Assembly (NCBI GenBank): GCA_030710605.1
Contig: CP092879.1
Location: forward strand, 46,458,222-46,522,221
Length of the DNA: 64,000 nt
DNA from: Cordylochernes scorpioides
Taxonomy: Eukaryota; Arthropoda; Arachnida; Pseudoscorpiones; Chernetidae
Direction: 5' to 3'
Below the pieces are notes generated by a model. It saw nothing but the letters and a program-made list of their open reading frames with translations. It did not search any database and was not told the origin of the DNA. A program made the translations under genes and the position numbers. Of the stretch, positions 31 to 52,620 are shown piece after piece (position 1 is the first letter of the stretch; the number at the start of each line of letters is the position of its first letter).

Positions 31-200
31 TCAATAGTAGAGAGGTATGGTAGATTAAACTGACAAAACTAATATATGGTTCACCACTGATGAGCCAGGC
101 CTCTCCACATTTTTTTTTCATTTTAGAAAAGGCAGTAGAAGGCTGTTTTATTCATAAAAATAGCAATTGCGCTAATACATAGTTTAAAATATCATGTAGA
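31..200 (+). mobile_element. Fold-back element, decayed copy with hammerhead-like block
   Basis: The CTGATGAG box lies at 87-94, preceded by TTCACCA and followed by GCCAGG, as in better copies near 49.1 and 40.9 kb. The GAAA box is decayed (ACAAAAC) and the GCGGT strand reads GAGGT at 41-45. The conserved tail GGCAGTAGAAGG follows at 131-142, then an arm unlike that of other copies. This is a degenerate member of the family described in the findings; the core is probably inactive. Confidence 0.6.
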
Positions 201-6827: not shown

Positions 6828-7009
6828 ATATTAGTAAATTAAATTTTATTGCCATCTATCGTTAAAATTTTACACAAATAAATTTACTGGCAATGCGTTT
6901 CTTTTAAATATTATCTCTACAGACCTTACTGCAAAGAAACGCATTGCCAGTAAATTTATTTGTGTAAAATTTTAACGATAGATGGCAATAAAATTTAATT
7001 TACTAATAT
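6828..7009. repeat. Perfect palindrome, 77 bp arms with 28 bp loop
   Basis: Arms at 6828-6904 and 6933-7009 are exact reverse complements by eye. Each contains GCCATCTATCG and GGCAATGCGTTTC (or complements); the loop contains the conserved AGACCTTACTGC, the complement of GCAGTAAGGTCT at 8123. This is a core-less mini version of the fold-back family whose fuller copy lies at 7930-8190. The arms run 22 bases beyond GCCATCTATCG into what looks like flanking DNA. Confidence 0.9.
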
Positions 7010-7929: not shown

Positions 7930-8190
7930 TACAGACCTATAAGCTTATGTCCATAGTTCCTTAAACACCCCTAAGCTGCCTTCCATAGAAAATGCAGGGT
8001 TTATAACAAAACCAGTCCAATACAATAGTAGAGCGGTCTAGAGATTAATTTGGCGAAACCGCTGAGAGGGTTCACTACTGATGAGCCAAGCCCTCTCATT
8101 CAATAACTCATACCATTGCAGTAAGGTCTGTAGAGATAATATTTAAAAGAAACGCATTGCCAGTAAATTTATTTGTGTAAAATTATCATA
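7930..8190 (+). mobile_element. Fold-back element copy with intact hammerhead-like core, left arm lost
   Basis: The interior (AAGCTTATGTCCATAGTT at about 7940, then AGCTGCCTTCCATAGAAAAT) matches the copy near 52.36 kb. The core block lies at 8032-8097. After it come GCAGTAAGGTCTGTAGAG (8123) and the arm AAAGAAACGCATTGCCAG (8148), identical to the arms of the palindrome at 6828-7009. The match stops at about 8188, and no left arm is visible, so the copy is truncated. Confidence 0.75.
8032..8097 (+). ncRNA. Strand-reordered hammerhead-like motif
   Basis: AGCGGT (8032-8037) pairs with ACCGCT (8058-8063) as stem III, and C8038 is the would-be cleavage nucleotide (GTC triplet). TAG (8039-8041) pairs with CTA (8075-8077) as stem I. 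TTGGC (8050-8054) pairs with GCCAA (8085-8089) as stem II. The boxes are GAAA (8055-8058) and CTGATGA (8078-8084). GAGAGGG (8064-8070) pairs with CCCTCTC (8091-8097). Relative to the 49.1 kb copy the stem I, stem II and outer stem pairs change together. The strand order is not that of a natural hammerhead, so activity is unproven. Confidence 0.6.
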
Positions 8191-26760: not shown

Positions 26761-26856
26761 TTATGAACAAGCTTGTTGCGGCTAAAGGCCATCGATATAC
26801 AAAACCATTCTAACTCGTTGATGAAGAGGGCGGGCTTTTCTACTGTCTGGTTAGTG

Positions 26857-27010
26857 ATCAAGTACATAGGACATGTACAAGAGAGTGTGTGGCCTTGCAT
26901 GCAGATTCTCAAAAGACGGCAAGAAAACTTGTCAGCTTCAACACTGAGTTATGGGGAAGTGGAGGGAGGGAGGGGGTTCCCTGCCCCGGTTCATTCCCCT
27001 GGTATGGTAC
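26857..27010 (+). repeat. Dispersed repeat also present at 28733-28880
   Basis: Shared text includes GCAGATTCTCAAAAG / GCAGATTCCCAAAGG, AAGAAAACTTGTC, CTTCAACACTGAGTTA and GGTTCCCTGCCCC. In the second copy this sequence sits inside a fold-back element, upstream of its hammerhead-like block. Confidence 0.75.
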
Positions 27011-27060
27011 AAGACGATGAATATAAATTCGCCCTCCTACCTACCAGGGAGCTGTAAGGT

Positions 27061-27930: not shown

Positions 27931-28069
27931 TATTTATAAATATATTTATATGTGTTTCTACTATCGTCAGAAGCTTATATCCATAGTTCTATCTCTCTCT
28001 TAAACACTTTTACCAAGGATTCCTACAAAGTACTGGATATTTAAAAGCAAAATAACCCAAATCAATATT

Positions 28070-28160
28070 TATATCTGTATGGTAGATTAAACCGCTGGTA
28101 GGGTCCATAGTTTATTAGCCTGGATATCAATATTTTTAAACATTGCAGTAAAAAAAGTAG
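28070..28160 (+). mobile_element. Fold-back element, internally deleted decayed copy
   Basis: GTATGGTAGATTAAACCGCTGG joins the cleavage-strand region directly to the CCGCTGG region, skipping the GGCGAAA box; GAGCC is then replaced by TTAGCCTGG. A 3' CATTGCAGTAA tail follows. Core lost. Confidence 0.5.
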
Positions 28161-28661
28161 AAATTTGTTTTGGCTGAAAAAAAATAAAAAAATCTGAAGA
28201 TTGGAAGTTGATTCAGAGAAAAACATAGTCACATCAAACCAGTTTAACCAGTTTTTAAACTAGTTTAGAATCAATAAAATTGTTTAAATTGTCAAATTGT
28301 AAACCAATAGTTTATTTAAACTCCTGACTTTGAAGAGAATGACAGGAATTCACTAGGAAAGAAATTATTTGGTTGATGTAGCTGTGCTTTTCTCTAAAAG
28401 AAAAATAATTCCTCAAAAGCCTTTATATTTCGAAATATAAAAGAAAGGCGTCAATACCTTGATAAGGAGAAATGTAGAAATCATCAAGGGCGGCTTCTAA
28501 ATACGAGGCGGCCATGTTGAGTCAACAGGAAAAATATGGCATTTGACAGATGGGACACTTGACCTCAAAGAAACCTCAATACGCGCGAGAAGAAGGACAG
28601 AAGGATCAACTAAGTAATAAAACATTTTGTTCATACCAACATACCATAAAGATAAATATAT

Positions 28662-29017
28662 ATAGCGCGCCATCTGTTATGAAAATTAGAAACTATTTTA
28701 GACGCGTAAGATTCTACCGTCTGATTAAGGATCAAGGACATAGGACACGAGTGTGTGGCCTTGTGTGCAGATTCCCAAAGGCGGCAAGAAAACTTGTCTG
28801 CTTCAACACTGAGTTAGGGGAAAGGGGGAGGGGCGGAGGTTCCCTGCCCCAGTTCATCCCCCTGATATGGTCCAAGATGATTAAACTGGCGAAACCGCTG
28901 GGAGGGTTCACCACTGATGAGCCAGGCCCTCCCATTAATTTTTCCATTGCAGTAAGGGCAGTAGAAATTTTTTAATTTCAAAAGAATCTTACGCGTCTAA
29001 AATAGTTTCTAATTTTC
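28662..29017 (+). mobile_element. Fold-back element copy with 10 bp target duplication
   Basis: ATAAATATAT flanks both sides (28652-28661 and 29018-29027). The 5' end reads ATAGCGCGCCATCTGTT. The arms at about 28679-28714 and 28982-29018 match exactly, including bases (TATG..TTAG) that differ from the other copies. The interior includes the dispersed repeat 28733-28880, then CTGGC-GAAA-CCGCT, GGGAGGG, ACCA-CTGATGA-GCCAG and CCCTCCC (28886-28933). The AGCGGT strand is replaced by TATGGTC, so this core lacks a complete stem III. Confidence 0.75.
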
Positions 29018-29039: not shown

Positions 29040-29490
29040 TATTTCATTCAAAAAAGGAAAGCATGCTTTAACGCGGTCGCGTTTCATCAGTCCACTAGCT
29101 CCGCAAAGAGGTGTAACATACAATGTAGATTCACATGAATAAATTTAAAACAAAATAAAAAAATGAATACAAATTTCAACTGTAGAAGGTTAGGAGACAA
29201 TTTAAATGAATTATCTGCATTGAATATGCTGGAACTGTTGGGGTAGATCAATTCTTCTGTTTATGCTGTTATTCTCTTTGGAGATTAAAGATTGTAGAAT
29301 GAGTCTATTGTATATGGAGAATATGTTATGGAAATGACATCTTGTAGGTTGAATTGATCTGTAGAATTTTCGTGCTGGAATATTAAGGATTTGTTATCTT
29401 GGTTTCTGATATTACGGCTATGTTCTTTAATTCTTATGTCTATTGATCTGCTGGTCTCTCCTATGTAAGAGACGGTGGTGTGTCGCTTTA
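29040..29490 (-). mobile_element. Penelope-like element fragment: GIY-YIG end plus terminal repeat
   Basis: On the minus strand, the text from about 29490 down encodes VSYIGET-like and RSIDIRIKEHSRNIRNQD-like residues of the GIY-YIG endonuclease that ends Penelope proteins. Downstream lies a terminal repeat with a hammerhead core at 29067-29090. The reverse transcriptase is missing. The second fragment at 32540-33075 has the same endonuclease segment on the plus strand. Confidence 0.65.
29060..29090 (-). ncRNA. Minimal hammerhead core, one core change
   Basis: On the minus strand: CTGATGA, stem II AACGCG-AC-CGCGTT, then TAAA in place of GAAA, followed by palindromic GCATGC. Long, perfect stem II; the altered G12 should reduce or abolish cleavage. 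Confidence 0.55.
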
Positions 29491-29725
29491 TTAGTCCAGC
29501 GATGGCCCAGAAAGTATTTCGAAGTTAGTGTTTATTGGTATTACTTAATAGCCACATTTTTAGAGGAAGACAAGAAGACAACACCCTAGAATGTCTATTA
29601 GGTTCTCATTGACTTCCGCCGATCTGCCGCGCCACGCAGCGGTGGTCATCTCCAGGCTGGAAGGAAGTCTCTCGGCCCCCCACAAGACATTGTCGGCAGG
29701 AGATGGAGTATATGACGTTCTGCTT
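29491..29725 (-). repeat. Dispersed repeat, inverted relative to 49711-49985
   Basis: The reverse complement contains TGGCGCGGCAGATCGGCGGA, AGACATTCTAGGGTGTTGTC and TTTCTGGGCCATCGCTGGAC, all nearly matched at 49.8-49.97 kb. Frames through it are short. Origin unknown; possibly a retroelement 3' region. Confidence 0.7.
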
Positions 29726-30185
29726 GTTTATCGACTCTGTATTATTGGATTTGGGATTTATGATGATCTGTGTGTGAATTATATAAAAAAATCCATAACC
29801 AAATCCAATAATAAATCTAAAATGCTCATATGAGCTGTCAGATATGCCAATTTTATTTTTAATATCACCACATGACCTTTTTATATTTGTTTCTTAAAAT
29901 TTTCACATACACATAGATATAAAGAATATAAATACAAATCTATATCTGCCTGAAGGTATTTGAAACAGAATATTGAAGTATAATATATAAATTACTATTT
30001 ATTTTGAATTTTGACCGTTTTATTTTTGCTTGTAATCCTAAGGATATTTGAGATAAGAATCTGGTTATTTGAATTTCTCTTCTTTCTTTGAGATCTTAAA
30101 CAATCCATTAAAGTCTCCATTCTCAACAGTTTACGAGATGTGAAATCCTGCACATAGACATCGTATATTTAAAGAGTTTGTATAT
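29726..30185. other. Intergenic
   Basis: No gene. AT-rich sequence leading into the truncated Penelope reverse transcriptase. Confidence 0.5.
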
Positions 30186-31378
30186 ATAGAATCTCTCTAC
30201 ACCTCAATCCCGCACGATGAAGCACTCCTGGCCCTCCAATCATTTCTTGAAATCCACCCAGAAATAGTTCTGCCCCTCTCTAAAGAAGCATTAATAGATT
30301 TAATCAAACTTTGTTTAGACAATAGTTATTTCAGTTTCAAAGACAGATTCTTCCGGCAAATTAAAGGCCTACCAATGGGCAACCCGATTTCATCTGCATT
30401 AGCCAACATATTTATGAACGAAATAGATGAACAAATAATTAATTCAAACCAATTTAAAATAATATTATGGCTACGATATATTGATGACATTTTTTGTCTA
30501 ACAGAAATAGACATTGACAGCTTCATACGCTTTCTCAATAGTCTCAAACCTTTTTTAAAGTTCACATATGAAAAAGAAAGCAATAATTCCCTAGCCTTTT
30601 TGGACATCCAGCTTAAAAGGAATCAATATAACATCGAAACATGCATTTACAGGAAACCCACTCACACCGGAAACTATTTAAATTTCAGTTCCTTTGGTCC
30701 CATACATAACAAAATAGCCGTAGTGAAATCTTTTTCTAAAAGAATAGAAACACACCACTCAAATAGAAATAATGCAACAGAAGAAAGAAATAGAATTTTC
30801 AAAGAATTAATAAATAATAATTATCCAAAAAAAAATATTGAAAAACATTTTTATAAACAGAGAGATATACCTTCAAATAATAGTCGTGATCAGTCTCAAA
30901 AAAGATATTGCTCTATTCCATATAGCTACGGTTCGGAGAGAATTGTCCGAATTTTAAAGAGATATAATATAATTACAACATATCAATCTGCACAAAATCT
31001 ACGACAAATCTTACGCCACTCAGATACAAAAAAAATATTTCAAACCAAGAAAATACAACCAATGTAATTTACAAAATTCCCTGCCAGACATGTCAAGCTA
31101 CATACATTGGAGAAACAGGAAAATCATTTAAAGATCGTATCAATCAACATAAAGCAGCTTTAAAAAACTACAAGCCATTATCCCTACTAGTAGACCACTC
31201 CCTAAACAATAGCCATATACCAGATTTCAAACAGACCACAATTATATACAAAAATATAACAGAAAAGCATAGTAGACTGTTTTTAGAAAGTTGGGCTTCT
31301 GCCGAAGATAAACAGAGTATAAACAGAAAATTTGATTTTCCAGAAATTTATAAAGAATTCATAATTATTTATAAATAA
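30186..31378 (+). pseudogene. Penelope-like reverse transcriptase and GIY-YIG endonuclease
   Basis: The open frame enters at about 30186 with SLYTSIPHDEALLAL, a typical Penelope RT motif, then RQIKGLPMGNPISSALANIF, the catalytic YIDD at 30477-30488, and FLDIQLKRNQYNIETCIYRKPTHTG. The frame stops at 31067; after a one-base shift the GIY-YIG domain follows (VIYKIPCQTCQATYIGETGK, FKDRINQHK, ending FPEIYKEFIIIYK near 31378). The N-terminal half of the RT is missing. In Penelope-like elements the RT copies the RNA and the GIY-YIG nuclease nicks the target. Confidence 0.88.
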
Positions 31379-31559
31379 CTATGTATATACTTTTAATTTA
31401 CTCATTTATTTTGCTTTCAAAAATTTTTAAATTTAGAATTAACATGTAAAGACACAATTTTTTACAATTACACTGTTGTATATAAATCTCTATATCTTTC
31501 ATAGATAAAATAATAATATATAATATTAAATATAATTATTTGCTGTATATAAACTGAAT

Positions 31560-31770
31560 ACAATAGTTAAATCAAAGATACAATTCTTTCATTGGCCTTG
31601 TAGAACGAGAGTGGTGTACGCGTGCGCGCATGTTCTAGTGAAAAACACAAACATCCTCGATAAAGAGAGGCGAGTTGCCCCTCGAAATATTGGAACAATA
31701 AAATAATTAGAAATCCAATATATGCATCTTTTAAAAAATATATATATATATTTCCCATTTCCTTGGATTT
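31560..31770 (+). mobile_element. Penelope 3' terminal repeat (probable)
   Basis: It lies just downstream of the GIY-YIG domain. GAGGCGAGTTGCCCCTC then GAAATATTGG (about 31667-31695) has the stem II-GAAA-palindrome layout of the other terminal repeats but lacks CTGATGA. It is followed by AATAAAATAATT and an AT run. Confidence 0.4.
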
Positions 31771-33486: not shown

Positions 33487-33624
33487 AAAGGATGTATGAT
33501 GCACTAGCGCGCCATCTGTTATCAAAATTCGAAACTATTTTAAAGGCGTAAGTAGAAATTGTTTAATTTCAAAAAAAATTTTACGCCTTTAAAATAGTTT
33601 CGAATTTTGATAAAGGATGTATGT
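33487..33624. mobile_element. Core-less mini fold-back element with 12 bp target duplication
   Basis: AAAGGATGTATG occurs at 33487-33498 and 33613-33624. Between them are ATGCACTAGCGCGCCATCTG and a hairpin with 32 bp perfect arms (33520-33551 and 33581-33612). The loop holds only GTAGAAATTGTTTAATTTC and an A run. GCGCCATCTG lies outside the hairpin, on the left only. Confidence 0.85.
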
Positions 33625-38821: not shown

Positions 38822-38833
38822 ATATCTGCTTAT

Positions 38834-39025
38834 TAACACAAAGCAATAACGCGCCATCTATACATATAAAATGAAAGGATTTAAAAGCACGAATGTAATA
38901 CAAACTTCTACTGTCCTTACTGTGACGCAAAAATATATTGGGAGGGTTTGGCCAACATATTTTTTCGTCACAGTAAGGGCAGTAGAAATTTTTATTACAT
39001 TCGTGCTTTTAAATCCTTTCATTTT
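38834..39025. mobile_element. Core-less mini fold-back element with 12 bp target duplication
   Basis: ATATCTGCTTAT at 38822-38833 and 39026-39037. The 5' end is TAACACAAAGCAATAACGCG with CCATCTATAC. The arms (about 38864-38930 and 38961-39029) include TTTAAAAGCACGAATGTAAT and TTCTACTGTCCTTACTGTGA and their complements. The loop keeps only a GGGAGGG trace of the core. The arm sequence is unlike any other copy. Confidence 0.85.
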
Positions 39026-39037
39026 ATATCTGCTTAT

Positions 39038-40794: not shown

Positions 40795-41048
40795 ATATAT
40801 ACCACCCTTCAGTGTAGCATATAAAGGCAGAATGATCCAATAGGGTATTAGAGCTCTAAAGAAGCGGTCTGGTGGATTAAATTGGCGAAACCGCTTGGAG
40901 GGTTCACCACTGATGAGCTAAGACCTCCCAATATATTTTTTCATCGCAGGAAGGACAGTAGAAGTTTGTTTTATTTGTGAAAAGAAACACTCACGTCTTA
41001 ATGTCTTCATTTGTTATTTATAGATGGCGCGTTATTGCTTTATATATA
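40795..41048 (+). mobile_element. Fold-back element copy, arm type C
   Basis: Interior CAGTGTAGCATATAAAGGCA and TATTAGAGCTCTAAAGAAG (shared with the reversed copy at 44.6-44.87 kb), core at 40863-40929, tail GGAAGGACAGTAGAAG, then arm GAAACACTCACGTCTTAATG and the end ATAGATGGCGCGTTATTGC, the complement of the 5' end seen at 38841. The left arm is not visible, so the copy is 5' truncated. Confidence 0.75.
40863..40929 (+). ncRNA. Strand-reordered hammerhead-like motif
   Basis: AGCGGT (40863-40868) with ACCGCT (40890-40895); C40869 in a GTC triplet; TGGT (40870-40873) with ACCA (40906-40909); TTGGC (40882-40886) with GCTAA (40917-40921, one G-U); GAAA 40887-40890; CTGATGA 40910-40916. GGAGG and CCTCC form the outer stem. 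All core positions are intact. Confidence 0.6.
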
Positions 41049-44147: not shown

Positions 44148-44284
44148 ACACAGTGACCTTTATTGAAAACACGCGAAATAACAAAGTGTGAACAAATGGT
44201 AATAGAGAAAATTCCCATCCAACACATCTCTCTTCTATAATTTAATCTTATCATGTAAATCCATATAAGAGATGAATAGCACAC

Positions 44285-44380
44285 AATTGTAGCAGCGGTA
44301 TGGTAGATTAAGTCAGCTGAACATTGGGGAAACAATGGGAGGTAACCACTGGTGGCTCTCCCGATATTTTTCATCTAGAG
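44285..44380 (+). mobile_element. Fold-back element, decayed core
   Basis: AGCGGTATGGTAGATTAAG (44294 onward) is intact, then GGGGAAAC, GGGAGG, AACCACTGGTGGCTCTCCC. CTGATGA has become CTGGTGG and stem II is lost. It lies 140 bases after the 76 bp array. Confidence 0.55.
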
Positions 44381-44599: not shown

Positions 44600-44875
44600 A
44601 TATCTATATTATTATATGTAAGAAATTAAGACGCGAATGTTTCTTTCACACGTATATCAAACTTCTACTGTCCTTATTGCGATGGAAAAATATTGAGAGG
44701 GCTTGGCTCATCAGTGGCGAACCCTCCCAGCAGTTTCGCCAATTTAATCTACCAGAAGGCTTCTTTAGAGCTCTAATACTGATCATTCTGCTTTTATATG
44801 CTACACTGAAGAGTGGTTCTCTTAGAAATTATATTTAAGCAAACTATGGACATAAGCTTTAAGGACAGTAGAATT
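44600..44875 (-). mobile_element. Fold-back element copy, reversed, arm type C
   Basis: On the minus strand: CTTAAAGCTTATGTCCATAG (44.86 kb), TAGCATATAAAAGCAGAATG, TTAGAGCTCTAAAGAAG, then TGGTAGATTAAATTGGC, GAAA (44734-44737), CTGCTGGGAGGG, GCCACTGATGAGCCAAG (CTGATGA 44708-44714), CCCTCTC, TAAGGACAGTAGAAG and arm GAAACATTCGCGTCTTAATT. Stem III has diverged (AGCCTTC against ACTGCT). Confidence 0.75.
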
Positions 44876-48610: not shown

Positions 48611-48949
48611 TATTTAAACTTCTAATTTTGATAAATTGACGAGGGAATATGTGAACATTCAATGACCATCATAACAGCGTGGAATGTAATTTAGATGTCA
48701 GACAACTGGATCAGATAACTTTCCTCGTCTGATTCTAGGTCAAGATAGAGCGAGCCGCCATCAATCTCTTGGCCGCAGATACCGACAGAGATAGCAGCTT
48801 CTTGGACATCGTCTGATGTAACATCCAAATGACATGTTTTACATACCACCTATTTACATATATAATATTTTCAATATACATCCAACTTCATAGTTTTAGA
48901 ATTAAAAGACATTTCGGCCACAGTAAATCATTTTATTATCTCGACAAAC
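48611..48949. other. Intergenic
   Basis: No gene or clear element. Confidence 0.5.
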
Positions 48950-48965
48950 ATATTTATCTTTATTA

Positions 48966-49209
48966 TTGCATTAGGGCGCCATCTGTTATCAAAATTCGAA
49001 ACTATTATAGACGCGTATGATTCTTTTTGAAAATAAACCATTTTATCGAAAAATGCTATATAACAGCGGTATGGTAGATTAAACTGGCGAAACCGCTGGG
49101 AGGGTTCACCACTGATGAGCCAGGCTCTCCCATTAATTTTTCCATTGAAGTAAGGACAGTAGAAATTGTTTATTTTCAAAAGAATCATACGCATCTATAA
49201 TAGTTTCGA
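48966..49209 (+). mobile_element. Fold-back element, most complete copy, 16 bp target duplication
   Basis: ATATTTATCTTTATTA flanks it at 48950-48965 and 49210-49225. 5' end TTGCATTAGGGCGCCATCTG; left arm 48986-49039, right arm about 49168-49209 (GAATCATACGCATCTATAAT), matching each other, including the copy-specific TATTATAG, with one or two mismatches. The core lies at 49065-49131 and the conserved tail CCATTGAAGTAAGGACAGTA follows. No ORF, so it is non-autonomous. Confidence 0.85.
49065..49131 (+). ncRNA. Strand-reordered hammerhead-like motif (best copy)
   Basis: AGCGGT (49065-49070) and ACCGCT (49092-49097) form stem III; A49071 is the would-be cleavage base (GTA). TGGT (49072-49075) with ACCA (49108-49111) is stem I; CTGGC (49084-49088) with GCCAG (49119-49123) is stem II. 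GAAA 49089-49092; CTGATGA 49112-49118. GGGAGGG (49098-49104) pairs with CTCTCCC (49125-49131). It would fold as two adjacent hairpins whose loops pair to build the hammerhead junction. Confidence 0.6.
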
Positions 49210-49225
49210 ATATTTATCTTTATTA

Positions 49226-49710
49226 ACATTCTATAACGCGATATCCCAAACTCAGGAATATTTGCGTCAATACATTTCTAACATCATAAAAATTTGCTAT
49301 ATACAAGGAGAAAGGTCAAGGAGAAAAAAGACAAACATACAAAAGCAATTCTCTCAAAATTTCCTTCCCTCTCTTTCCCAGTTCAAAAGATAGTTGTATA
49401 TATATCTACAAAATTGATTAAAAATATATGTTCTTTTATCACCTACGAATTTATGCAGCTGCCCAAACATATTTGACAATTTTTTTTTGTCGAAACGTCG
49501 AGAGAATAAAAAAGATTCACTTCCCGAAGTATCTCTTAATTCTAAAACTTTGAATGCCGGTCAGGCAACTTCTATCTTCGTGTGATATCCAACTTTATGA
49601 TTAACTTAGTTTTTCATCCTCCTCTATTCTGAACCTTTCTCTTTATCAGCATATAACTCAATCTATTCCAGTTCTTAAACAAATTGGTTCGCATTCTTTT
49701 TTCTTGTATC
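49226..49710. other. Intergenic
   Basis: No gene. AT-rich. 49484-49510 (TTTTTTTGTCGAAACGTCGA) may be an element edge. Confidence 0.4.
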
Positions 49711-52254: not shown

Positions 52255-52620
52255 CAATTGCCATCTATCGAAAAAATGTGTAACAAATAAATTTACTGGA
52301 AATGTGTTTCTTTTAATAATATATCTTCAAAAATATTATCTAATATATCAAATATATAATGTCCATAGGTTCCCTAAACACCCCTAATCTGCCTTCCTTA
52401 GAAAATACAGGCTATATAAGAAAACCAAACCAATACAATAGTAAAGCGGTCTGGAGATTAATTTGGCGAAACCGCTGAGAGGGTTCACCACTGATTAACC
52501 AAGCCCTCTCATTCAATAACTTACATCATTGCAGTAAGGTCTGTATATAGAGATAATATTTGATGCTATTATTAAAAGAAACACATTGCCTGTAAATTTA
52601 ATTGTTGCAAAAAATAAGTT
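52255..52620 (+). mobile_element. Fold-back element copy, arm type B
   Basis: Left arm from TTGCCATCTATCG (52258) through AACAAATAAATTTACTGG, right arm AAAGAAACACATTGCCTG to about 52612. The interior matches 7930-8190. Core at 52445-52507. Confidence 0.75.
52445..52507 (+). ncRNA. Strand-reordered hammerhead-like motif, inactivated
   Basis: AGCGGT-C (GTC), TGG with CCA, TTGGC with ACCAA, GAAA 52468-52471 and GAGAGGG with CCCTCTC are kept, but CTGATGA reads CTGATTA (G8 to T) at 52491-52497. G8 is a catalytic base in hammerheads. Confidence 0.55.

Follow-up and report, generated by a model that had tools for sequence, protein, structure and literature searches.

At positions 49065 to 49131 (forward strand) of the DNA analyzed here, a 64,000-base stretch of the 2.62-Gb Cordylochernes scorpioides assembly (C17:46458222-46522221; hereafter, the window), the parts of a hammerhead ribozyme occur in an unusual strand order, which raises the questions of what kind of ribozyme this may be and why a pseudoscorpion genome should carry it. 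Following Eckert, Friedrich, Weinberg, and Weinberg (2023; PMC10085705), who named the building blocks S, G, and C, we divided the segment into three blocks plus a helix IV, all on the forward strand. The S block (49065-49075; AGCGGT-A-TGGT) consists of a helix III strand, AGCGGT (49065-49070), the cleavage nucleotide A (49071), and a helix I strand, TGGT (49072-49075). The linker AGATTAAA, which lies between TGGT and CTGGC, joins it to the G block (49084-49097; CTGGC-GAAA-CCGCT), composed of a helix II strand, CTGGC (49084-49088), GAAA (49089-49092), and a helix III strand, ACCGCT (49092-49097). The C block (49108-49123; ACCA-CTGATGA-GCCAG) contains a helix I strand, ACCA (49108-49111), the core CTGATGA (49112-49118), and a helix II strand, GCCAG (49119-49123). 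Helix IV is formed by 49098-49104 with 49125-49131 (GGGAGGG/CTCTCCC), with TTC between GGGAGGG and ACCA and a single G between GCCAG and CTCTCCC, and the cut is predicted to fall after A49071. The results described below lead us to propose, with a probability of roughly 0.7 and on the basis of sequence comparison, that the segment is a type-SGC hammerhead present once per unit of a 371-372-bp, retrozyme-like, nonautonomous retroelement in the pseudoscorpion.

The window was searched with a descriptor that admits all six block orders and demands at least 3 bp in helix I and at least 4 bp in each of helices II and III, within a span of at most 120. Three matches were obtained, all in the order S-G-C and all at copies already named in a preliminary description of this DNA (8032-8097, 40863-40929, and 49065-49131). 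For these, the descriptor confirmed the core (CUGANGA, GAAA, and NUH with A15.1-U16.1), the helices, and the contacts, and it bore out the 5'-to-3' block order given there. No match of any order was found in 40 dinucleotide shuffles of the window, and the core pattern matched six times in the window versus 0.00 expected; a chance origin was therefore rejected. When applied to 568,241 bases of unrelated sequence (72 phage and prokaryote loci), the descriptor returned a single match, a type II (G-S-C) hammerhead on the viral contig IMGVR_UViG_3300014501_000005 (L006, positions 1262-1326). This match, which also fits the Rfam model RF02276 (28 bits, below the gathering score of 37), served as a positive control. 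Since the shuffles gave nothing and a type II hammerhead was recovered from unrelated loci, the descriptor is both specific and able to see ordinary hammerheads. The pattern for the family itself retrieved 0 loci from viral contigs, and a looser pattern retrieved 11 loci from viral contigs and 61 from prokaryote genomes, none of which is S-G-C by the descriptor. Within 225,830 bases retrieved from the C. scorpioides genome, all 50 places found by the strict descriptor are S-G-C. These bases include ten 10-kb stretches taken at fixed positions, where the strict descriptor found 0 and a looser sequence pattern found six.

Rfam gave no match at the gathering score anywhere in the window and no hammerhead match up to an E value of 10 in 48900-49300. 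A tRNA or other known RNA was considered and rejected, and a misread canonical hammerhead was rejected on the S-G-C block order together with the lack of a match to the Rfam hammerhead models. Because these models miss the window copies, other genomes may contain permuted hammerheads that have escaped notice. A weak SNORD64 match at 29754-29825 (27.9 bits; gathering score, 40; E value, 0.017) is probably due to chance.

The preliminary description held that no known hammerhead uses this order. That claim proved wrong, because the same noncircular order is described for the type-SGC hammerheads (the HRIMA-1 motif and its variants), published in 2023 with demonstrated cleavage (PMC10085705). In these RNAs, a further helix ties together the free sides of stems I and II. 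According to that report, 583 sequences were predicted, five were shown to cleave at the predicted site, mutations in all four helices of one ribozyme abolished an activity that was then rescued, and the rates, which include those of shortened constructs, ranged from 0.007 to 0.19 per minute. The copies described here share with them the S-G-C order, the conserved core, helices I to III arranged as pseudoknots, and the extra helix on stems I and II; likewise, zero nucleotides separate helix III from the extra helix, as in a few of the published ribozymes. They differ in the linker between helices I and II, which is 7 to 8 nt here versus typically 3 nt in the published ones; the comparison is one of architecture. 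They differ also in setting: the report places none of its ribozymes in the genome of a known organism and gives environmental RNA samples as the sources, whereas here the ribozyme is found in animal DNA, once per unit of a dispersed repeat. A literature search, with preprints and most subscription journals outside its scope, found no later report of type SGC in an animal genome. With the canonical types I, II, and III, the segment has in common the catalytic core and three helices, but S-G-C is no circular permutation of them.

How these blocks would come together had been read in the preliminary description as two hairpins pairing through their loops or, alternatively, as a hammerhead that assembles only from tandem or dimeric RNA. 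The kissing-hairpin reading stands: both hairpins, AGCGGT/ACCGCT and GGGAGGG/CTCTCCC, are present, and the second sits where the extra helix of type SGC sits. Dimeric assembly is unneeded for type SGC, because RNAs of approximately 80 nt carrying a single ribozyme cleaved in vitro in the published work (PMC10085705). The same result weighs against a canonical nested hammerhead formed across two units of a multimeric RNA, to which one unit would contribute its S and C blocks and the following unit its G block, the monomer being inactive. The blocks would then stand in their classical order, head-to-tail arrays of units exist, and compensation in helices I and II fits the two-unit and the single-unit fold alike. 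Nevertheless, helix IV, which is part of the monomeric fold, is also kept with compensation, and loops of about 300 nt would be needed, so we consider the two-unit arrangement unlikely.

Conservation was compared among five window copies representing three subfamilies. Between subfamilies, the ribozyme is 86 to 88% identical, the 60 nt upstream are 43 to 49% identical, and the 60 nt downstream are 61 to 75% identical; within two subfamilies, all parts of the window copies are 85 to 94% identical. Two tandem units agree at 63 of 67 ribozyme positions (94%) and at 48 to 84% in the other bins, and the four ribozyme differences lie at the cleavage nucleotide, at one linker position, and on both sides of one helix II pair. 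The copies at 8032 and 49065 differ at nine sites, six of which make up three compensated pairs (in helices I, II, and IV), with no pair broken. At least three compensated pairs arose in a fraction of 0.0004 of 5,000 random placements for this comparison; the fraction was 0.012 to 1.0 for the other nine, and 6 of the 10 pairwise comparisons do not exceed random placement at 0.05. When seven window copies were set against 500 shuffles, 10 shuffles reached the percentage paired and 9 the number of cells with a two-sided change; the number of pairs with a two-sided change was reached by 161, the covariation score by 88, and the further pair types by 498.

MAFFT alignments placed subfamily C badly and were replaced by a covariation table of 39 distinct copies with an S block; 19 of 93 copies were left out as lacking an S block, which was scored as absent when it matched at fewer than 4 of 6 letters. 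In this table, 783 of 852 cells pair (91.9%), versus 36 to 55% when the partners were displaced by one to three columns. Two-sided changes occur in one pair of helix I and in two pairs each of helices II and IV, the second pair in II, and likewise in IV, coming from a single row. The helix IV pair 35-66 is G-C in 28 and A-T in 6 of the 39 copies. No two-sided change was seen in helix III among the copies with an S block, and covariation therefore does not bear on this helix; an A-T at helix III pair 5-29 appears in two rows of the MAFFT alignment and in none of the copies with an S block. The preliminary description had offered its proposal for rejection should the helices covary no more than controls. 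What was observed instead is two-sided change in helices I, II, and IV and pairing well above the slid-partner level, with some of the seven-copy shuffle controls weak.

Among 74 copies with an S block, the core is intact and no pair is broken in 48; in the remaining 26, the core is damaged or a pair is broken. This distribution bears on whether the stretch might be conserved for some other role, for instance, as a protein-binding hairpin pair in priming, and no longer cuts. Cleavage here is a prediction, and two more blocks of the repeat unit are well conserved (82% and 84%); both points would be compatible with such a role. Plain hairpins, however, would not need the loop-loop helices, which are kept along with the core and with compensation in helices I and II, and the core and pairs are intact in the 48 copies mentioned above. 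We regard another role as very unlikely.

The two other complete ribozymes in the window differ from the 49065 copy in detail. That at 8032..8097 (forward strand; subfamily C) has the compensated helices I, II, and IV described above, and its helix I is only 3 bp by the descriptor before it is interrupted, a correction to the preliminary description; that at 40863..40929 (forward strand; subfamily B) has a helix I of up to 8 bp. Six decayed or partial copies had been overlooked earlier. They comprise a subfamily C ribozyme with the damaged core CTGATTA at 52445..52510 (forward strand), a subfamily B ribozyme with a damaged helix III at 44694..44760 (minus strand), a decayed ribozyme at about 41..112 and a decayed copy of the unit at 27936..28181 (both forward strand), a further decayed or partial copy at 44264-44373, and a copy without an S block at 28879-28933, within a partial unit spanning 28879..29015 (forward strand) that is joined to another repeat at 28712-28884. 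This separate repeat recurs at 26838-27021 with 81.5% identity and is joined to a partial unit in one of the two places. In three retrieved loci (L074 at 974, L082 at 982, and L085 at 2358), a unit fragment that has G and C blocks and no S block is found in another repeat. Copies that appeared to have a different block arrangement proved to be unit fragments of this kind, embedded in another repeat and lacking the S block.

The repeat unit, the head-to-head arrays, the genome-wide number, and the retroelement context were all absent from the preliminary description. At C1:7156000-7163500 (L103), 12 minus-strand units are followed by 4 plus-strand units in an array with a period of 372 bp, 98 to 99% matches between units, and one ribozyme in each; in a second subfamily, the unit is 371 bp. 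Among the listed matches, same-strand neighbors less than 1 kb apart are spaced by 371 or 372 in 9 of 10 distinct cases, and most of the listed copies are not tandem. The two subfamily units have a GC content of 0.34 and 0.37, and a TATAAAA motif, perhaps acting as a promoter, begins 32 and 42 nt upstream of their ribozymes. With phase 1 of the unit set at the first base of AGCGGT, the plus arm at 49065 is joined at phase 353, and this insertion consequently lacks the TATA-like motif. No open stretch longer than 63 and 95 codons was found in the tripled 371- and 372-bp units, respectively, and circular folds of the units have no excess stability (z, -0.6 and -0.7). Two blocks at unit phases of about 88-102 and 268-282 (L103 and L105), conserved at 82% and 84%, have complementary sequences (AAGGACAGTAGAA with TTCTACTGTCCT) and could pair into a stem around the region that holds both insertion ends.

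Throughout the genome, a core pattern of 34 places has at least 121,433 matches when up to three mismatches are allowed (60,553 forward and 60,880 reverse), and the same pattern read backwards, as a control, has 0. The exact 67-nt ribozyme of one subfamily occurs in at least 5,863 copies (2,902 plus 2,961; control, 0), the counts for large families being lower bounds. Most of the genomic copies analyzed in this work are from the beginning of one chromosome or from loci retrieved because of a motif match.

The unit matches of the window and the retrieved loci form 77 groups. Of these, 31, with the array among them, are minus-then-plus, 42 have a single arm, and 3 are mixed; the remaining group is plus-then-minus and is truncated where its locus ends. 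These numbers overstate independence because some insertions look like segmental copies (apparently L074 with L107 and L076 with L081). When 95 of the 100 listed core matches were taken in, the last 5 being left out, opposite-strand neighbors less than 1 kb apart were head-to-head in 13 of 14 listed cases, and the exception is a locus with two adjacent insertions. For 22 of the 29 minus-then-plus insertions that are distinct in size or phase, both outer ends fall within phases 130-205. In 17 of these 22 (the left end at L105 is counted as phase 169, scored against the other unit, and is 186 against its own), one end has a phase of at most 170 and the other a phase of at least 175, and in 20 the two ends are at least 18 nt apart (18 to 42 nt). 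In 17 of the 22, one or both arms extend far enough to cross the cleavage site. The inner junctions of the arms are scattered, and an arm can contain up to 12 whole units. Flanking duplications of at least 10 bp, which are 83% A+T, border 13 of 21 two-armed insertions (11 to 19 bp) and 2 of 37 single-arm pieces. In controls that combined the left flank of one insertion with the right flank of another, such duplications appeared in 6 of 420.

The insertion that carries the 49065 ribozyme (48966..49209, forward strand) has a minus arm at about 48972-49044 and a plus arm at 49046-49206, and the same 16-bp sequence, ATATTTATCTTTATTA, flanks it on the left (48950..48965) and on the right (49210..49225). 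Its inverted arms are thus read as two opposite-sense cDNAs between two copies of ATATTTATCTTTATTA. Two further head-to-head insertions in the window consist only of 3' parts, one at 33495..33619 with no ribozyme and a 13-bp flanking duplication and the other at 38832..39029 with no full ribozyme and a 12-bp flanking duplication. A long ribozyme-free palindrome at 6845-7000 has the 3' part of the unit in both directions and continues into apparent flanking sequence. Inverted arms around a ribozyme, as well as short ribozyme-free palindromes, could also be produced by a MITE or a fold-back DNA transposon with terminal inverted repeats, in which the structured sequence would be accidental. Such an element is difficult to reconcile with ends that do not coincide in unit position in 20 of 22 insertions, with duplications that vary from 11 to 19 bp, or with arms of up to 12 whole units and scattered inner junctions, and we hold it to be highly improbable.

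The features of the proposed type-SGC retroelement resemble those of two known groups of elements. Metazoan retrozymes are described by Cervera and de la Pena (2020; PMC7229834) as sequences of about 170-400 nt with type I hammerheads that are found as circles. Like them, the unit described here is nonautonomous, within 170 to 400 nt, low in GC, equipped with one hammerhead, found in tandem copies, and associated with duplications of more than 4 bp; unlike the type I hammerheads and head-to-tail tandems of that report, it has type-SGC hammerheads and head-to-head, two-armed insertions. For one Penelope-like element, the protein is reported to cleave and extend both target strands, to prefer AT-rich DNA, and to start inside the RNA (PMC11167929). 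The points of likeness are that a hammerhead lies within the element, that the targets are AT-rich, that both target strands would be cleaved and extended, and that reverse transcription would start internally, whereas those elements encode a reverse transcriptase and a GIY-YIG endonuclease and the 371-372-bp unit has no open stretch of more than 95 codons. By analogy, a Penelope-like enzyme that used unit RNA in circular or multimeric form would yield the observed head-to-head arms, internal starts, AT-rich duplications, and multimers.

Thus, the element probably moves through a circular or multimeric RNA. Its units would be transcribed, perhaps from the TATA-like motif 32 to 42 nt upstream of the ribozyme, and the helix III and helix IV hairpins would pair through their loops as helices I and II, forming the hammerhead core. 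A cut after H17 in each unit, as shown for the published type, would release unit-length RNA from tandem transcripts, and this RNA could be closed to a circle or left multimeric. A reverse transcriptase supplied in trans, possibly from a Penelope-like element, might then prime from both strands of an AT-rich target and begin at two RNA sites about 20 to 40 nt apart, sometimes for more than one round, and the two cDNAs, whose end products are seen in the genome, would be joined head-to-head between flanking duplications. We lean slightly toward the full form of this route, in which RNA circles of unit length are produced by the SGC ribozymes and are then copied from two sites by a reverse transcriptase that is primed on both target strands, leaving head-to-head and sometimes multimeric arrays. 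If it is correct, the orphan type-SGC ribozymes would gain a genomic home, and a rolling-circle, double-sided, target-primed integration route would be shown. Type SGC is here a conserved part of a mobile repeat with at least 121,433 core matches in a named animal, a setting that may reveal the purpose of such RNAs. Should the ribozyme cut, the function of a permuted hammerhead could be tested directly in a collectable organism, whose many natural variants would serve work on structure and kinetics. The insertions, for their part, may record how small ribozyme-bearing RNAs integrate, with two start sites, head-to-head arms, and multimers.

The window holds a reverse transcriptase open reading frame of 1226 residues that matches a C. 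scorpioides protein with 99% identity across its entire length. Remains of two Penelope-like elements lie in the window at 30375-31385 (forward strand) and at about 29120-29560 (minus strand). The open reading frame at 30375-31067 matches RVT_1 with an E value of 8e-06, below the cut-off, and GIY-YIG-like reading frames were recognized by eye. Motifs near 29060-29110 (minus strand) and at 31660-31700 resemble decayed canonical hammerheads and have no Rfam hammerhead match at an E value of 5. A location of the ribozyme inside a Penelope-like coding element was considered first, a reverse transcriptase open reading frame lying 1.4 kb from the 28879 copy, and was rejected, the units being insertions with ends of their own.
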